Virus record (IMG/VR): IMGVR_UViG_3300029267_001570 | Location: 1 to 33,724 of that record | Source of the DNA: a virus | Length of the DNA: 33,724 nt | Direction: 5' to 3' (one strand) | Shown here: piece by piece, positions 7,250-21,104 of the stretch | Position numbering within the stretch: position 1 is the first letter of the stretch | Layout of the letters: every line of letters begins with the position of its first letter | The notes under the pieces: model-generated | Told to the model about the DNA's origin: nothing | What the model saw: only the letters and a program-made list of their open reading frames with translations | The model's database searches: none | Translations under genes and position numbers: made by a program

Positions 7250-9199
7250 ATGGCTCGAACCAGGAGAGACAGTAGGAGAACGGGGCTCTATCCATTGGCT
7301 TATATGGGTGTTGAGCCAATAGCCCCACCACTGTTATTAACAGATAATCGTGCACCCACACCAGAAGATAGAAGAAACTTTGATATTGGTACTATTTGGA
7401 TAGATAGATCAACCGCGCCACTTGAAGATATATGGATGTTGGTCAATTTGGATGGAAATGTAGCTCGATGGCTTAGAATATCACAAGCAGCTTCAACTGC
7501 GCTTGAAACTTTAACGGGTAATATAGGGCTAGCAGTTCCAGGTGATGGTGCAAATAATATTAATGTTATAGGAGCTGGTCCATACGTCATAACTGGTAAC
7601 CCAGCTACCAACACTCTCACACTTACAGATAACGGCACAATAGCTAGACAGTACGATGGAGACGTCGGATCGGCATTCCCAATAGCTAACGTGCTAAATA
7701 TCTGGGGTGGAACAAACATAAATACTACGGGGGCAGGTCAGACTATAACTGTGAACCTTGACAATGACGTAGTAATTCCTGGCACCTTAACTCTTCCTTT
7801 GCTGGGGGCTGGTGTTGTGCAGACAACTGCTGGCGGTCTCTTCTTCTCAAATAACGGCGCCAATGGACAAGTTATTATTGGAGGGGGTGCGGCTCCTGCA
7901 TGGGCAAATATTACCTCCGCTGGAGGAACGATAGTTGTCACGAATGGTCCAAACTCTATTAATATAGATACAGCTGCTGGCGGCGTTGTTCTACCCGGCG
8001 ACAACATAAACATTAACCCTGCAAACACAGTAAACCTTAATGAAACTATTCACTGGCCTCGTACAAATGCTGCGGGAACTCAAGGGATGATTTACCTTGA
8101 TGGAGCCGGAGGTGTTGGTGGTGCGAGATTCCTGCATAACTATTCACCTACGTATGGTTCGGTGTTTTTGGGTAGATGGGCTGGAAATCTCACGAATACT
8201 GGGGATGAGAATATAGGTATAGGCTACTATGCGATGGATGCTCTAACTTCAGGGGATTATAATACAGCTGTTGGTACTCGATCCATGACAGATTTAACAA
8301 GTGGTCTTCGTAATACTGCATATGGTGCATATGCACTAGATAATGAAACCAGTGGTGATGACAATGTAGCCATAGGTTATGCCGCGCTTACCGATCAAGC
8401 TACGGTAAACGGAAATACTGCCGTAGGTGCATACTCTATGTCAAATATTACAACTGGGGGTGAAAACACTGCGGTTGGTTTTAAGACCATGCAAGCAGCA
8501 ACTACTGCTCAAATTAATGATTCGTTTGGCTATGAGAATATGCTTAATCTTACTACTGGTGAGCGCAACTCTTCTATGGGTGAGCAGGCCTTAAGAGCTG
8601 CTACTACAGCGAGCAGGAATGTTGCTATAGGTAATGGCTCCCTTATTCAGCTTCAAACTGGGGAGGGTAATATCTGTGTGGGTATCAACTCTGGCTACAA
8701 TTACACAACTAATGAGAGCAATAATATTATTATCACAAACTCTAATGTGTCTGGTGTGGTTGGAGAAAGTAATGTAATCAGAATAGGTACGCATGGTACT
8801 GGTCCTGGGCGTGTTCAGGAGGCGTGTTATATAGCTGGTATATATAATAAACCATATGATGGTGCTACTGATGTCGACGTTAGAATAGATGCTAATAGTA
8901 AGCTTGGAACTTATGCTTCTGCGAAAAAGCATAAAGATAATATACAGGATATGGGAGAAGCAAGTTCGCCTATATTCAATCTTCGTCCTGTAACATTCCA
9001 CTTTAAGAACGATGATCGTAAGCTCCAGTGTTTTGGTCTGATAGCAGAAGAGGTTGATGAAGTTATGCCACGCCTTGTAGCACATGATCCAGAAACGGGT
9101 GATCCAGTGACAGTGCGGTACCACGCTTTGGTACCAATGTTACTTAATGAGATTCAGAAACTCACTAAGCGAGTCGAAGAGCTGGAAAAGAAGATATAA
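7250..9199 (+). CDS. Tail fibre with C-terminal S74 intramolecular chaperone
   Basis: The 649-residue protein starts at ATG 7250 after AAGGAATAA. The N-terminus (RNFDIGTIWIDRSTAPLEDI) resembles a fibre-attachment domain. A glycine-rich region follows, then about 180 residues of head repeats (NTAVGxxSM, NxAIGYxAL units) like those of trimeric adhesins. The C-terminal 93 residues form a Peptidase_S74 domain: SAKKHKDNI at 557-565 carries the Ser and Lys residues used in self-cleavage, then FGLIAEEVDEVMP, YHALVPMLLNEIQKL and a final coiled coil. In this family the domain folds the trimer and is then cut off at the Ser. Confidence 0.9.
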   Translation: MARTRRDSRRTGLYPLAYMGVEPIAPPLLLTDNRAPTPEDRRNFDIGTIWIDRSTAPLEDIWMLVNLDGNVARWLRISQAASTALETLTGNIGLAVPGDGANNINVIGAGPYVITGNPATNTLTLTDNGTIARQYDGDVGSAFPIANVLNIWGGTNINTTGAGQTITVNLDNDVVIPGTLTLPLLGAGVVQTTAGGLFFSNNGANGQVIIGGGAAPAWANITSAGGTIVVTNGPNSINIDTAAGGVVLPGDNININPANTVNLNETIHWPRTNAAGTQGMIYLDGAGGVGGARFLHNYSPTYGSVFLGRWAGNLTNTGDENIGIGYYAMDALTSGDYNTAVGTRSMTDLTSGLRNTAYGAYALDNETSGDDNVAIGYAALTDQATVNGNTAVGAYSMSNITTGGENTAVGFKTMQAATTAQINDSFGYENMLNLTTGERNSSMGEQALRAATTASRNVAIGNGSLIQLQTGEGNICVGINSGYNYTTNESNNIIITNSNVSGVVGESNVIRIGTHGTGPGRVQEACYIAGIYNKPYDGATDVDVRIDANSKLGTYASAKKHKDNIQDMGEASSPIFNLRPVTFHFKNDDRKLQCFGLIAEEVDEVMPRLVAHDPETGDPVTVRYHALVPMLLNEIQKLTKRVEELEKKI

Positions 9200-9252: not shown

Positions 9253-10002
9253 TTATTTACCATCTCTAGCCATGACAATTTCTCTTACACGCTTGAATGC
9301 GGAAGCGAACTTGCTCTTTGGCATATCGGCAAGGGTTTGTAACCTCATCTTATCTAATATCTCTTCTGCAAGGTCAGTATGGTCTCGCAGCTCGTATCTT
9401 ATCTGATCTAATTGTTCTTTGGTGATTGTCTCAGCTGATTCCTTCTTCGCATTATACTTATGGTTGAGTCCAGTTCCTTTCTCAAATTTCTTCCTAGAGT
9501 CATGTACTGCAATCTCTCCATCATCATCATCATCTGAGGCAACAACACCTACAAGCGACGCATATGCATAACGTCTTAAATAGGTCATATAGCTACCTAG
9601 TGACTGTACGTCAGCCTTTGGAGGAACAACCCTCATTCTGCTTTCCATCCACTGTCCTGAACTGTGCAGTAAGAGGGTTACTAATATGTTAGCGCCATCT
9701 TCATTTAGGATGGGTGGTTGAAGTACGGATAGTCCATTCTTAGAGAGAGCAGCTCTGGCTGAACTGACTATCTCTGCGAGGTCAGCATACTTTGACTTAT
9801 AGAATGGGTTCTCTTTGGTGAGACCCGCAATTTTAAATTCTCCCTGCGCTTTAGCAAGCGCTGCGGCTAACTCATGTATTTCCTTGGAACGTGTAGGGGG
9901 AACTGTTTTTGGCTGCTTCTTAGATGCAGCGCTTAGTTCTTCTACCTGCTTCGCCAGTTTAGCGAGAGATTCTAATATCATTATCGCGTTCTTATCATCC
10001 AT
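9253..10002 (-). CDS. erf: ERF-family single-strand annealing recombinase
   Basis: The 249-residue protein matches the ERF family (essential recombination function, first known in phage P22), which binds single-stranded DNA and anneals complementary strands during phage recombination and genome circularisation. Visible signatures are ALAKAQGEF at 49-56, NPFYKSKYADL at 65-75, LSKNGLSVLQ at 86-95 and GSYMTYLRRYAYASLVGVV at 136-154. An Asp run (156-161) precedes a charged C-terminal tail. The start at 10002 has AGGGA upstream and overlaps the stop of a 25-residue membrane peptide by 8 bases, implying coupled translation. It is the last gene of the minus operon. Confidence 0.9.
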   Translation of the reverse strand: MDDKNAIMILESLAKLAKQVEELSAASKKQPKTVPPTRSKEIHELAAALAKAQGEFKIAGLTKENPFYKSKYADLAEIVSSARAALSKNGLSVLQPPILNEDGANILVTLLLHSSGQWMESRMRVVPPKADVQSLGSYMTYLRRYAYASLVGVVASDDDDDGEIAVHDSRKKFEKGTGLNHKYNAKKESAETITKEQLDQIRYELRDHTDLAEEILDKMRLQTLADMPKSKFASAFKRVREIVMARDGK

Positions 10003-10072
10003 ATATTTCCCTATATAGTAAGTAAATTGAAAATCCTAGTATTATTAACATCGCAATCATGAAGATAGGCAT
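9995..10072 (-). CDS. 25-residue membrane peptide upstream of ERF
   Basis: ATG at 10072 is preceded by AAGGAG with a 6-base spacer, the best ribosome binding site in this part of the operon. The peptide (MPIFMIAMLIILGFSIYLLY, then REIYG) is essentially one transmembrane helix with a short basic-acidic tail. Its stop overlaps the ERF start (ATGGATGA). It is shorter than usual gene-finding cut-offs. It may be a functional micro-protein or a leader peptide that couples translation into ERF. Confidence 0.6.
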   Translation of the reverse strand: MPIFMIAMLIILGFSIYLLYREIYG

Positions 10073-10073
10073 G

Positions 10074-10157
10074 TCAGTCTCCTTTATATTTCCCTAGAGA
10101 AACTATAAAATAAGCAACAACTGTAACTATAACCCATACAACTATTTCTAGTAACAT
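10074..10157 (-). CDS. 27-residue membrane peptide
   Basis: ATG at 10157 lies inside the 3' end of the preceding 130-residue gene (overlap about 10 bases) and the stop is one base before the next ATG. The peptide (MLLEIVVWVIVTVVAYFIVS, then LGKYKGD) is one hydrophobic helix with a Lys-containing tail. No strong ribosome binding site is visible, so it would depend on coupling from upstream. It is paired with a second membrane peptide of nearly the same size. Confidence 0.5.
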   Translation of the reverse strand: MLLEIVVWVIVTVVAYFIVSLGKYKGD

Positions 10158-10540
10158 TCCATATCTGCCTTCAGCTTAGCTACCTTATCTTCCATCTCAT
10201 CGATCTTCTCGGACATATATTCCTTAAAGGCTAACAGAAATGGTCGTAAGTACTTGGCACACTCTATTCTCAATTCAACTGGTAGGTCACCAAGTGGTCT
10301 GTCTATCTCCTGATCTATGAGTCTCACGCATACTCTGCATTTCTTCTTCTTCCTTGACCTGGTTGGTCTCCTCCAAGCCAGGAATACATTGTGTACAGGA
10401 TCTGCGTGATATTCAAACTCTAACTTATACTTATTCGCTTCAGTTAATTGAGCCTCTACTTTATGCAGAGTCTTGGAGAACTCGTCAAGGACGGCGGTGA
10501 GGGCTGCTGCCTCCACCGCTGCGTCATCTAGGTGACTCAT
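10148..10540 (-). CDS. Early-operon protein of unknown function, 130 residues
   Basis: ATG at 10540 overlaps the upstream stop as ATGA. The N-terminal third is helical (LTAVLDEFSKTLHKVEAQL). A basic patch RRPTRSRKKKKCRVCVR at about 77-93 could contact nucleic acid, and the last 35 residues form a coiled coil (MSEKIDEMEDKVAKLKADME). No family recognised. Its place in an operon ending in ERF suggests a role in DNA metabolism or host takeover. Confidence 0.8.
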   Translation of the reverse strand: MSHLDDAAVEAAALTAVLDEFSKTLHKVEAQLTEANKYKLEFEYHADPVHNVFLAWRRPTRSRKKKKCRVCVRLIDQEIDRPLGDLPVELRIECAKYLRPFLLAFKEYMSEKIDEMEDKVAKLKADMECY

Positions 10541-11079
10541 AGGCTTTCCTCCGCAAACTCCATAGCAGCCTGATCGTTATTATACTTATCACAGCATTCG
10601 GTTGAGCAGAAGTCAGAGTGATCTTTACCGTTCTTCTCTATCTTCTTCCCACATTCCCAGCAGCCGTCATTAATCTGATCTCTGAGTGTCACAAAGTCTG
10701 ACAGGAACTGGTTCTCTGCCATGAACAGTTCTAGTTCCTTAAAGAGGTAGCGTTCCTTAAGCTTTAATACCTTCTCTTCTACCTCTAAAGCGTCAACCTT
10801 CTGTTCGGAGTCGGTTATGAGTTTGTAGCCTCGCTGTAGCTCATCATCATTTGCCATGGTCTTTGCCAGTTCTACTTTGCGCTTTTCAGCGTTGGAGTAG
10901 CGTGGGTCCTTGGTGTCCACAGTCGAATTAAACTCTGATTTAATATCTAGCTCCCAACCTGCTACGAGTTCCTGGGTTTTGGCCAGTGCACTGGCTACCT
11001 GATGGAACCTCTTCGTGTTTATAATGCGATAATGTAATAACTTCTCCAATATATCCATGTATTCTTCTCTAGTTTTCAT
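10537..11079 (-). CDS. Helical protein with a C-terminal zinc-binding motif
   Basis: The 180-residue protein starts at ATG 11079 after GGAGAACC. About 130 residues of charged helix are followed by a four-cysteine motif, C140-x2-C143-x14-C158-x3-C162 (CWECGKKIEK to HSDFCSTECC), which looks like a zinc ribbon or treble-clef knuckle. The ATGA overlap with the next gene indicates coupled translation. No specific function can be assigned; a DNA- or protein-binding adaptor is likely. Confidence 0.82.
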   Translation of the reverse strand: MKTREEYMDILEKLLHYRIINTKRFHQVASALAKTQELVAGWELDIKSEFNSTVDTKDPRYSNAEKRKVELAKTMANDDELQRGYKLITDSEQKVDALEVEEKVLKLKERYLFKELELFMAENQFLSDFVTLRDQINDGCWECGKKIEKNGKDHSDFCSTECCDKYNNDQAAMEFAEESL

Positions 11080-11311
11080 TGTGGTTCTCCGCTATATCTT
11101 TAAGTAAATCAAATAGTCCAACTTTGTCTGGGTGCTGTGCTTTAACCAGCTCCTCTACAGGCTCCAATTCCTTATACAGGAGGGCCATCTTCAGGTGCAT
11201 CTTACTGAGCTTTTGCTGAAGTTTCTTCGCTTCCTTCCCCAAGGTGGAGAAGGTGTCCATCTTATCATCGATCAGTACCTGCAGTTGATCAGCTGCTTCC
11301 TTAATTGTCAT
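11069..11311 (-). CDS. Small coiled-coil protein
   Basis: The 80-residue protein starts at ATG 11311 after AAGGAGAAG and ends 11 bases inside the next gene. It is almost entirely amphipathic helix (ADQLQVLIDDKMDTFSTLGK, KLQQKLSKMHLKMALLYKEL). Function unknown; probably oligomeric. Confidence 0.75.
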   Translation of the reverse strand: MTIKEAADQLQVLIDDKMDTFSTLGKEAKKLQQKLSKMHLKMALLYKELEPVEELVKAQHPDKVGLFDLLKDIAENHNEN

Positions 11312-11489
11312 CAGTCTTCTCCTTTATAGGTATTTCGTGCCACTTACCCTTGTGCCAATATCGCACTACTTTCTGAGCGCGAGCTATTCTTTCTCTGTTT
11401 TCTAAGAACTCTTTCTCGGTTACGCAGTTACGCTTCTCATCTCGTTCATCTAAAATCTTACGGATCTTCTTACGTGCTTCGTCATTCAT
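11301..11489 (-). CDS. Small basic helical protein
   Basis: The frame is open further upstream to 11633, but the upstream gene occupies that stretch in another frame. The start is placed at ATG 11489, which overlaps the upstream stop as TAATG, with GGAAGGA nearby. That gives 62 residues (MNDEARKKIRKILDERDEKR to HEIPIKEKTDDN). It is rich in Arg, Lys and Glu, with a KVVRYWHKGKWHEIP strand near the end. Function unknown. Confidence 0.72.
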   Translation of the reverse strand: MNDEARKKIRKILDERDEKRNCVTEKEFLENRERIARAQKVVRYWHKGKWHEIPIKEKTDDN

Positions 11490-11839
11490 TAGTCCATCCT
11501 TCCAAAGTGGTGCCAGCATTCTATTCCGTGTGATTTTAAGAACTCTAATACGGGTCCTACAGTCTTCTCTTTGGTGATGCCACCCTGTACTCCAGGAGCT
11601 GGGACTATAATACAGCGACGTGGATTTCTGCATCTTGGAGGGAGCACGTATGCCATAATGTGGTCTCCTATTATACAGCTCCCTTCATCTTTGCCGTACT
11701 CTATGCATAGTCTCTCCCACATAGCCTCTGCTTGGTCAAGGATAGGCTTCCACTCTTTTAGCTGCTTGGTGGTGTAGTATTTATCCTCACCAGGGGAATG
11801 ATCCCAGGTAAATGTCTGGGTCTTTCTATTAACCTTCAT
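11489..11839 (-). CDS. Early-operon protein of unknown function, 116 residues
   Basis: The protein starts at ATG 11839 after AAAGGA. It contains HSPGEDKYYTTKQLKEWKPI near the N-terminus, a Cys/Arg-rich centre (PPRCRNPRRCIIVPAPG), and ends GIECWHHFGRMD. Cysteines and histidines are present but not in a clear zinc-finger spacing. No family recognised. Confidence 0.78.
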   Translation of the reverse strand: MKVNRKTQTFTWDHSPGEDKYYTTKQLKEWKPILDQAEAMWERLCIEYGKDEGSCIIGDHIMAYVLPPRCRNPRRCIIVPAPGVQGGITKEKTVGPVLEFLKSHGIECWHHFGRMD

Positions 11840-11854
11840 ATTGGTCCTTTCTGG

Positions 11855-12064
11855 TTAATTATAAGATTGGTTAACTTTCTCTAATTCTTCATATGTTTTA
11901 ATGAGTTCTGGGAAGTGGTTGTAAATATCTTCCCTGTATGGTTTGATGCGCTTGAATACTTCCAGCTCTCTGTCTATGAGCTCGGTGTACCCGAAGTAGT
12001 CATCAAAGTGGTCTCTGTGGATTTGGTTAAGATCTGAAATGATTGCTTCTATCTCTCTAATCAT
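11855..12064 (-). CDS. First gene of the minus-strand early operon, small helical protein
   Basis: The 69-residue acidic protein starts at ATG 12064 after AAGGAG with good spacing. It is predicted all-helical, with many aromatic and charged residues (HRDHFDDYFGYTELIDRELE). It is the first gene after the strong promoter at 12125-12153, so it should be made early. Small acidic first genes of this kind are often host-interaction proteins in phages, but nothing specific is recognised. Confidence 0.78.
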   Translation of the reverse strand: MIREIEAIISDLNQIHRDHFDDYFGYTELIDRELEVFKRIKPYREDIYNHFPELIKTYEELEKVNQSYN

Positions 12065-12124: not shown

Positions 12125-12153
12125 AATATAATGTATTAACTTTATAATGTCAA
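12125..12153 (-). promoter_or_regulatory. Near-consensus promoter of the minus-strand operon
   Basis: Read on the minus strand, TTGACA (12153-12148) and TATATT (12130-12125) are separated by exactly 17 bases. The spacer and -35 edge contain the 13-base CATTATAAAGTTA, also found in the divergent promoter at 18801-18813. Transcription would run into the 12064 gene. Confidence 0.8.
12137..12149 (-). repeat. Operator candidate, copy 1 (13-base word)
   Basis: On the minus strand this reads CATTATAAAGTTA and covers the -35/spacer boundary of the early promoter. An identical word lies at 18801-18813 between divergent promoters next to a ribbon-helix-helix gene. Position inside the promoter fits a repressor site. 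Confidence 0.6.
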
Positions 12154-12260
12154 CATAAATTTAAAGTTTTACAAATTAATTTTATGTGTTATCATATTAG
12201 CAGAGTAAAAGCTTAACTATGATTCCTTCTTAGCTCAGAAGATTATCTGTTAAGGTTTGA

Positions 12261-12280
12261 GGGGTGTCATTGTACACCCC
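12261..12280 (+). terminator. Hairpin in the control region
   Basis: A perfect 7-base stem, GGGGTGT (12261-12267) with ACACCCC (12274-12280), has a 6-base loop and is followed by GTTTCTG. This could be an early terminator or attenuator just before the 52-codon frame at 12302. Confidence 0.4.
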
Positions 12281-12301
12281 GTTTCTGCATGAGGCGAAAA
12301 G

Positions 12302-17158: not shown

Positions 17159-18452
17159 CGCCATCATTAACATGGGCTATAAGAAAGTCATGGCCGTCTG
17201 GCCCAGACGTAGTGGTAAGGACATGTGTGCATGGAACATATGTATCCGTGAACTAATCAGTAAAGTACAGACTATATACTATGTATTCCCTACCTACTCA
17301 AGTGGGCGACGCATTCTGTGGGATGCGATTACCAATGATGGATTTCGTATCCTTGATTACATGCCTAAAGAGGTAATTGAGTCTAGAAATGAGCAGTTGA
17401 TGCGTATCAAGTTGAAGAATGGATCAGTCTTTCAGGTAATTGGGTCTGATAATTATGATAACGCGCTTGTAGGAACTAACCCCAAGGGAGTAGTATTTTC
17501 AGAGTTTGCCATTAGTAATCCGCGCGCATACGGGTTCGTAAGACCTATCCTATCTGCGAATGATGGATGGGTCTTAATTGTATCTACTCCTCGTGGTAAG
17601 AACTTCCTCTGGGAAATGTACAATGTTGGGCTATGTAATCCACAATCTTGGTATGTGTCTAAGTTAACAGTAGATGATACTGGTCATATACCCCTTGATG
17701 TAATAGAGCGTGAACGACTTGAGGGCGAGATGAGTGAGGACTTGCAGCTCCAAGAGTATTGGACATCCTTTGAGATGGGTATTGAGGGAGCATACTATAC
17801 CAAATATATGGATAAAGCACGCTTAGAGGGCAGGATAGGCGACGTTCCATGGGAACCATCTATGAAGGTTTATACAAGTTGGGACATAGGTTGTCGTGAT
17901 ATGACGTCCATTATCTTCTTCCAGATCGCGAATAATGTAGTGAGAGTAATTGATTGTTATGAGAAGAATAAGGAAGGTATAGAGCATTATGTTAATGTCC
18001 TTAAATCGAAGGATTATACGTATGGTAAGCACATTGGTCCCCATGATATTAGGAATATGGACTTCAGCACAGGTATCACACGTTGGGAGAAAGCGAAGCG
18101 ATTGGGAATCACGTTTACGGTGGCTGACAAAATCGGGATTATGGATGGAATTGAAGCGGTAAGATCGTTACTTCCTAAAGTGTGGTTCGATCAACGTAAT
18201 TGTGGTCCACTCATTAAAGCTTTAGAGAACTACAGACAGGAGTTTGATCCGAAGAAGAACGTCTACAAAGAGAGGCCTCTTCATGATGTTTACTCTAATT
18301 TCGCAGATTCGATGCGATATTTAGCTGTGTCGCTAGGAAAAGTGAATGAAGGTAGTTCGGCTGAGGAAATAGAAAGGCGTTACAGAGAAGCCGCATATGG
18401 GCATGACTCAAATATGCCACGTATCTTTAGAGATGATCATCGCCTGTATTAG
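17085..18452 (+). CDS. terL: Terminase large subunit
   Basis: The 455-residue protein starts at ATG 17085 after GAAGGAG. It has the ATPase motifs of packaging motors: Walker A WPRRSGKD at 39-46, Walker B with catalytic Glu (VVFSE) at 136-140, and the coupling motif STPRGKN at 167-173. The C-terminal RNase H-like nuclease shows D267 (SWDIGCRD), D321 (GPHDIRN) and D401/D408 (HDVYSNFADSM). It translocates DNA into the procapsid and cuts the concatemer, working with the portal at 21844. Length is normal for the family. Confidence 0.93.
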   Translation: MDLTPETSVHLNKFKPRDYQKCLFDAIINMGYKKVMAVWPRRSGKDMCAWNICIRELISKVQTIYYVFPTYSSGRRILWDAITNDGFRILDYMPKEVIESRNEQLMRIKLKNGSVFQVIGSDNYDNALVGTNPKGVVFSEFAISNPRAYGFVRPILSANDGWVLIVSTPRGKNFLWEMYNVGLCNPQSWYVSKLTVDDTGHIPLDVIERERLEGEMSEDLQLQEYWTSFEMGIEGAYYTKYMDKARLEGRIGDVPWEPSMKVYTSWDIGCRDMTSIIFFQIANNVVRVIDCYEKNKEGIEHYVNVLKSKDYTYGKHIGPHDIRNMDFSTGITRWEKAKRLGITFTVADKIGIMDGIEAVRSLLPKVWFDQRNCGPLIKALENYRQEFDPKKNVYKERPLHDVYSNFADSMRYLAVSLGKVNEGSSAEEIERRYREAAYGHDSNMPRIFRDDHRLY

Positions 18453-18589
18453 AATGGCATGTCATCATCATCCCAGCCAACTTCTATTGGTTTGGATATT
18501 TCTCTTTCTTCACGTTTCTTCTTATGTTGGTCCCACTTGGTGGCGATGAACCACAGTAAGATAAATGCTAGTCCGGTCATTGGGTACAT
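18449..18589 (-). CDS. 46-residue membrane peptide with SSB-like C-terminal tip
   Basis: ATG at 18589 has AGGGA upstream; the stop overlaps the last 4 bases of the large terminase on the other strand. Residues 5-17 are hydrophobic (TGLAFILLWFIAT), followed by a basic helix (KWDQHKKKREEREIS) and the exact C-terminus GWDDDDMPF. Bacterial SSB proteins end in an acidic tip with final Pro-Phe (DDDIPF in E. coli) that recruits PriA, RecQ, RecO, ExoI and others. This peptide could bring or trap such proteins at the membrane. The motif is seen directly; the function is inference. Confidence 0.65.
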   Translation of the reverse strand: MYPMTGLAFILLWFIATKWDQHKKKREEREISKPIEVGWDDDDMPF

Positions 18590-18591
18590 AG

Positions 18592-18768
18592 TTAATCCCT
18601 GTCGTTGTTTAAACGACTTTCAATGTCGCTAAGCCTATGTGAAAAGTTCATAACCGTCTGAGTCCAGTTAATAGGTGGATCTTCTAATGCTTCGACTCGT
18701 CCTTCAAGTTTTTCAATTTTTATCTGGATTTCTACCAAAATAGAGATGATGTCCTTTAAATTACTCAT
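18592..18768 (-). CDS. 58-residue coiled-coil peptide
   Basis: ATG at 18768 has AAAGGA upstream, and the stop is two bases from the next ATG. The sequence is an amphipathic helix (IISILVEIQIKIEKLEGRVE) followed by a Pro break (EDPPINW) and a second helix. It is first in a two-gene unit driven by the promoter at 18792-18820, with the SSB-tip membrane peptide second. The two probably work together. Confidence 0.68.
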   Translation of the reverse strand: MSNLKDIISILVEIQIKIEKLEGRVEALEDPPINWTQTVMNFSHRLSDIESRLNNDRD

Positions 18769-18791: not shown

Positions 18792-18820
18792 ATTATAAAA
18801 CATTATAAAGTTATTGACAA
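18792..18820 (-). promoter_or_regulatory. Promoter of the two-peptide minus unit
   Basis: On the minus strand, TTGTCA (18820-18815) and a perfect TATAAT (18797-18792) are 17 bases apart. The -35 overlaps that of the divergent plus-strand promoter, so the two compete or are co-regulated. The operator-like word 18801-18813 fills the spacer. Confidence 0.78.
18801..18813 (+). repeat. Operator candidate, copy 2 (13-base word)
   Basis: CATTATAAAGTTA is identical to the word in the early minus promoter at 12137-12149. A related half, ATAAAGTTTA, follows at 18822-18831 inside the plus-strand promoter spacer. Lying between divergent promoters and 60 bases upstream of a ribbon-helix-helix gene fits autoregulation. 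Confidence 0.6.
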
Positions 18821-18842
18821 GATAAAGTTTACATAATATAAT
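18814..18842 (+). promoter_or_regulatory. Consensus promoter of the ribbon-helix-helix regulator
   Basis: A perfect TTGACA (18814-18819) and a perfect TATAAT (18837-18842) are 17 bases apart, the strongest promoter in the window. Its spacer holds an ATAAAGTTTA half-site. Transcription reads into the regulator gene at 18875. Confidence 0.85.
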
Positions 18843-18874: not shown

Positions 18875-19084
18875 ATGGATAAGAAGATGGGACGACCTAA
18901 GAAAGCAGACACACCGAAGGGTCGTTTTACATTGTACCTTGATGATGACACAGCGAAGATGTTTAACGAGCTGTATGCGTTCAGGGTGATGCGGGGATGT
19001 AAAGATTCGAAGTCAGATGTGATATGCGACGCTATAAGGCAGTTGCATGCAACCGAATTTAATAAGCTTAAAGGTGAGAGATGA
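18875..19084 (+). CDS. Ribbon-helix-helix-type DNA-binding regulator
   Basis: The 69-residue protein starts at ATG 18875 after AAAGGGG. After a basic arm (GRPKKADTPK), residues 16-22 (GRFTLYL) form the expected DNA-contacting strand, 24-38 helix A and 45-57 (SKSDVICDAIRQL) helix B of the Arc/MetJ/CopG fold. Such dimers bind short AT-rich repeated operators. The consensus promoter upstream contains two such sites, one shared with the early minus operon, so autoregulation and control of early genes are likely. It overlaps the next gene by 4 bases. Confidence 0.75.
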   Translation: MDKKMGRPKKADTPKGRFTLYLDDDTAKMFNELYAFRVMRGCKDSKSDVICDAIRQLHATEFNKLKGER

Positions 19085-20897: not shown

Positions 20898-21104
20898 ATG
20901 GAAGGTGAGAGAATCCAGTGGGATGGTCAGTATATCCAGGAAAAGGAACTATTTAACGCAGTATGTTTCGCTAATCAGCTCTATCAGGCTGATGGTAAAA
21001 CAATGGAAGAGGCGCTTAAAATTGCCTGTGCGCACTATAAGATGCCAACTTCCAAGGTAGCGTTAGAATTAATGGTCGATAGGTTTATCAAGAAGAACAG
21101 TTAG
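20898..21104 (+). CDS. Small protein of unknown function, 68 residues
   Basis: The protein starts at ATG 20898, one base after the previous stop, with AAAGGAG upstream. The sequence (QYIQEKELFNAVCFANQLYQ to VALELMVDRFIKKNS) looks like a compact helical bundle. It lies between the membrane protein and the nuclease-like gene. Confidence 0.75.
   Translation: MEGERIQWDGQYIQEKELFNAVCFANQLYQADGKTMEEALKIACAHYKMPTSKVALELMVDRFIKKNS

Follow-up and report, generated by a model that had tools for sequence, protein, structure and literature searches.

We propose that an uncultivated tailed phage carries an autoregulated node, in which one or two dimers of a small ribbon-helix-helix (RHH) protein bind the octamer ATAAAGTT in three promoter spacers and repress the RHH operon, a divergent operon and the early operon for an ERF single-strand annealing protein. 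This reading has our modest confidence. At the level of sequence, the DNA supports a compact control region, in that three strong promoters share one octamer in one register, a relative carries a changed but shared word, and the layout is recurrent. The RHH, divergent and early promoters are probably all under the control of one small repressor.

The window, the whole stretch of DNA analysed here, spans an entire IMG/VR virus record (33,724 bases). It encodes a P22-like portal, a phage capsid protein, an ERF protein, a RuvC-like resolvase and three tRNAs, and its virus is a tailed phage of the P22-portal type. Relatives were gathered by terminase, portal and RHH-alignment searches. Portal relatives sit on at least 400 contigs, including some in Simkaniaceae and Parachlamydia bins. 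For example, L108, L109 and L110 have portals 54-59% identical and occur in Simkaniaceae, Methanomicrobiales (methanogen) and Parachlamydia genome bins. Their bin membership hints at chlamydia-like hosts for the phage group, with the proviso that bins may be contaminated. A search of the literature on tailed phages of chlamydia-like bacteria returned nothing of direct use. One relative, G009 (the contig of L031), has by eye an intein-like insert in its terminase (23920-26382), which measures 820 aa against 470 aa in its sister L122, and a GroES-like co-chaperonin gene, also recognised by eye, lies directly after that terminase (26397-26720).

The first-pass annotation had described back-to-back promoters with overlapping -35 boxes at 18792-18842, and inspection by eye and a promoter scan both bear out its coordinates. 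On the plus strand, the predicted promoter of the RHH gene (18814-18842) reads TTGACA-17-TATAAT and matches the consensus at 12 of 12 positions, with TTGACA at 18814-18819 and TATAAT at 18837-18842. On the minus strand, the predicted divergent promoter (18792-18820) reads TTGTCA-17-TATAAT (11/12), with its boxes at 18820-18815 and 18797-18792, so that five bases are common to the two -35 boxes. These are the top promoter matches between positions 9000 and 27500, and the predicted early-operon promoter ranks alongside them. The latter (12125-12153, minus strand) reads TTGACA-17-TATATT (11/12), with TTGACA at 12153-12148 and TATATT at 12130-12125 separated by 17 bp. Its operon (9253-12064, minus strand) ends with the ERF gene (9253-10002). 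The divergent unit begins with a gene for a 58-aa coiled-coil-like protein (18592-18768, minus strand). The neighbouring 46-aa protein (18449-18589, minus strand) has a hydrophobic N-terminus and ends in DDDDMPF, which looks like an SSB tip by eye only; it is possibly a decoy for SSB-binding proteins. On the plus strand, the RHH gene (18875-19084) is the first of a series that includes the portal gene and runs up to a terminator-like hairpin (24811-24830), and we infer that this series forms a single transcript.

The candidate operator word CATTATAAAGTTA has just two exact copies in the 33.7-kb record. One is at 18801-18813 on the plus strand, and the second, as had been claimed, is within the early-operon promoter at 12137-12149 on the minus strand, where it occupies part of the -35 box and spacer. 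The true length of the word common to both sites is 14 bases, ACATTATAAAGTTA, which spans 18800-18813 at the divergent pair. The placing of the word between the two divergent promoters needs correction: it lies inside the minus spacer and abuts the plus -35 box on its upstream side, and the plus spacer holds the octamer only. Scanning the record with up to two mismatches gave three matches, two in promoters and one in coding sequence. Sharing of 14 bases between the two intergenic regions was reached in 10 of 5000 dinucleotide shuffles, and in 4 of 1000 in a second run.

The core of this word, ATAAAGTT, has exactly three copies in the window, always at positions 3-10 of a promoter spacer: at 18822-18829 in the RHH promoter, at 18805-18812 in the divergent promoter, and at 12138-12145 in the early promoter. 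Each promoter has a single octamer, and 17 bp separate the one at 18805 from that at 18822. Of 300,000 spacer shuffles, 5 produced an 8-mer that all three spacers held in the same register, a somewhat generous figure because the spacers were picked once the word was known. Further, the divergent promoter carries its copy in the opposite orientation to those in the RHH and early promoters, which argues for a protein site over mere promoter likeness. There is also a weak candidate for a fourth operator-promoter, TTGTAA-TTTATAAAGTATTAATGT-TATGAT, between the portal and the next gene (23929-23958, plus strand); in the relatives L029, L032, L033 and L035 little or no space separates the portal from the gene after it, and a promoter of this type is absent.

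The early promoter is also adjoined by an invariant 15-base element, TTCCTTCTTAGCTCA, found in the window at 12223-12237 on the plus strand, within the region 12168-12290. The same element occurs in G001 (19898), G002 (16032), G003 (7734, minus strand), G005 (19432), G008 (28834), G009 (20866) and L122 (4296). In most carriers a promoter and a start (A/G)GAGTAAAAGC precede it and a terminator-like hairpin follows, a pattern suggesting that it may be a phage small RNA. A search of Rfam gave no match to it, and a search for targets of the element within the phage gave none above chance.

The first plus gene had been read as encoding an RHH regulator. We retain this as likely, because weak matches to RHH_1 and PHROG 876 coincide with a predicted extended stretch and two helices; the assignment is softened in that the RHH_1 score falls below the cutoff and a fold search gave no significant match. 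Specifically, Pfam RHH_1 aligns to the 69-aa protein over profile positions 1-37 of 39 (E=0.011, 16.1 bits, where the cutoff is 20.5), and no Pfam family scored above its cutoff. PHROG 876, 'transcriptional repressor', matches at E=0.002, and three of the seven family members match it. The AlphaFold2 model (mean pLDDT 80.9) contains a confident extended stretch at residues 15-23 and helices at 24-40 and 46-66, an order that fits the RHH fold. The RHH ribbon forms only in the dimer, and no strand was scored in this lone-chain model. A fold search with the model returned no match at E<=0.001, and its weak matches include the VapBC and FitAB antitoxin complexes and TraM. The protein had no match among annotated phages, found no relative as sole query in the viral contigs, and had no sequence similarity to Arc that we could detect. 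The seven-row RHH alignment proved too diverse for scanning, and a PDB sequence search with the RHH alignment returned chance matches only.

An alternative that we consider possible, if unlikely, is that the shared words reflect strong sigma-70-type promoters with AT-rich spacers, so that the preferences of RNA polymerase together with chance would account for them with no dedicated regulator. The counts over the whole record lean this way, since at up to three mismatches the word is found no more often than chance predicts (18 observed, 19.5 expected). Promoters such as TTGACTTTATAAATTTTTTATGTTATAAT are also found in unrelated viruses: in a pattern scan of all viral contigs, TTGAC[AT]TTATAAA... 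promoters appeared in about five families. The operator-promoter pattern scan met mainly unrelated viruses, and the operator reading is therefore weakened. Among 30 cross-virus pairs, 2 gave matches of 13 bases, and in DNA as AT-rich as this a 13-mer by itself therefore carries little weight. The octamer itself fits this explanation poorly, being restricted to three spacers in one register and reversed relative to transcription in the divergent promoter.

The relatives divide on the same question. The contigs G003 and G004 are 99.97% identical over 3353 bp and encode an RHH protein about 52% identical to that of the window. Their promoters, TTGACTTTATAAATTTATAATGTTATACT for the RHH gene and TTGACTTTATAAATGTTTAAAGTTATAAT for the ERF operon, have in common a word, TTGACTTTATAAAT, that is changed with respect to the window and yet occupies the same two promoters. 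Spacer identity between the two is 14/17 (shuffle p ~0.0006), and the length of their common 14-mer was reached in 0 of 1000 shuffles. The idea of a shared site therefore survives sequence change in one independent lineage, a repetition that counts against promoter preference and chance. In contrast, shuffle tests found no significant word common to the RHH and early regions in G001, G009 or G017, which favours that explanation; the G001 spacers have 10/17 bases in common (p ~0.001). In G005, the two regions have in common only an AT-rich 11-mer, equalled in 34 of 1000 shuffles. The early promoter of G008 contains a perfect 20-bp palindrome, ACTTTATAAATTTATAAAGT, a point in favour of regulation. 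No RHH gene was found in G008, because its contig appears to end short of that region. The window's sites lack a palindrome, whereas those of G003, G004 and G008 are palindromes, a difference that counts against the autoregulated reading. Pairing RHH and early spacers within viruses gave a summed score of 51 against a permutation mean of 41.6, a modest advantage equalled in 5 of 120 permutations.

At the RHH gene, back-to-back promoters also occur in G004, G005, G009 and G017, with -35 boxes 6-7 bp apart and no overlap, unlike the window. In G001 the divergent gene is absent from the locus. Divergent genes vary among these viruses, and the spot therefore looks like a variable cassette between the terminase and the RHH gene.

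A second alternative, which we regard as rather improbable, is that the shared operator is real and another protein binds it, either a host factor or a second phage regulator. By eye, the divergent unit of G003 and G004 encodes a second RHH-like protein (96 aa in G004), and a conserved 68-aa protein (20898-21104) is a further candidate binder. G009 and its sister G017 point the same way: their RHH proteins are near-identical and their early spacers almost unchanged, and their RHH-promoter spacers have strongly diverged. On the other hand, a second RHH-like gene was not noticed in the window, and RHH repressors are as a rule autoregulatory, acting next to their own gene. Very improbable, in our view, is a third alternative, that the RHH protein activates or acts dually, turning the plus operon on and repressing early genes in a true early-to-late switch, as might be read from an RHH gene that leads an operon towards the portal, with a terminator-like hairpin and the early operon as the other target; the candidate sites sit between -35 and -10, where they normally block polymerase, and the plus promoter should need no activator because it already matches the consensus at 12 of 12 positions.

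Under the autoregulated reading that we prefer, the RHH protein would be made from the plus promoter as the first product of the operon towards the portal. A dimer, or a pair of dimers, would then bind around ATAAAGTT between the -35 and -10 boxes of its own promoter, the divergent promoter and the ERF early-operon promoter. As the protein accumulated, it would block RNA polymerase at all three, shutting off the early genes and keeping its own operon at a fixed level. Because their -35 boxes overlap, the two divergent promoters would also exclude each other. Three elements of this account are inferred: the identity of the RHH protein as binder, repression as the outcome of binding, and the timing. 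The first-pass annotation had gone further, suggesting a compact phage switch in which one regulator controls itself, the SSB-tip unit and the early operon. The compact control region stands, but 'switch' exceeds the evidence: an autorepressor that simply shuts the promoters off accounts for the data equally well.

Circuits of this type are already known in phages. The imm I region of P22 has back-to-back promoters, an operator within the promoter, and autorepression. The window resembles this Arc/Mnt system in its small phage RHH protein, the divergent promoters adjoining the RHH gene, a candidate operator repeated between -35 and -10 in three promoters, and proposed autorepression. It differs in that its regulator heads an operon towards the portal, its second target would be the ERF early operon, and an antirepressor gene was not recognised among the genes considered. 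Arc and Mnt are both RHH repressors of P22, and Arc binds paired half-sites (AmrZ paper, PMC3325190). Another small RHH protein, omega (ParB) of plasmid pSM19035, has several target promoters, its own among them, which it recognises by a short word that is not a palindrome (PMC9499535), just as we propose for the single small RHH protein of the window. However, omega sites consist of 7-10 contiguous heptads that also serve partition, whereas the window has single octamers per promoter and no contiguous short repeats. The Pc and Pr promoters of pLS20 are divergent and overlapping, lie under an operator and admit one polymerase at a time, with RcoLS20 as regulator (PMC4207663). The divergent promoters of the window likewise overlap, with a candidate operator over them. 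RcoLS20 works as a tetramer that loops DNA and has an activating role too, and the likeness concerns promoter layout.

The phage group is one in which such a circuit was undescribed. We speculate, with considerable doubt, that a single RHH protein acts as an early shut-off regulator across this uncultivated group, with spacer operators co-evolving with it. The comparison of relatives also offers a gauge of how far promoter words in AT-rich phage DNA can be trusted, given that one relative repeats the pattern and three do not. More broadly, the window provides a concrete regulator-operator candidate for an uncultivated phage group that has no close match in the searched phage collection. Should the speculation on the whole group be true, the circuit could be a first one for gene control in tailed phages infecting chlamydia-like bacteria, given that some portal relatives fall in Simkaniaceae and Parachlamydia bins.
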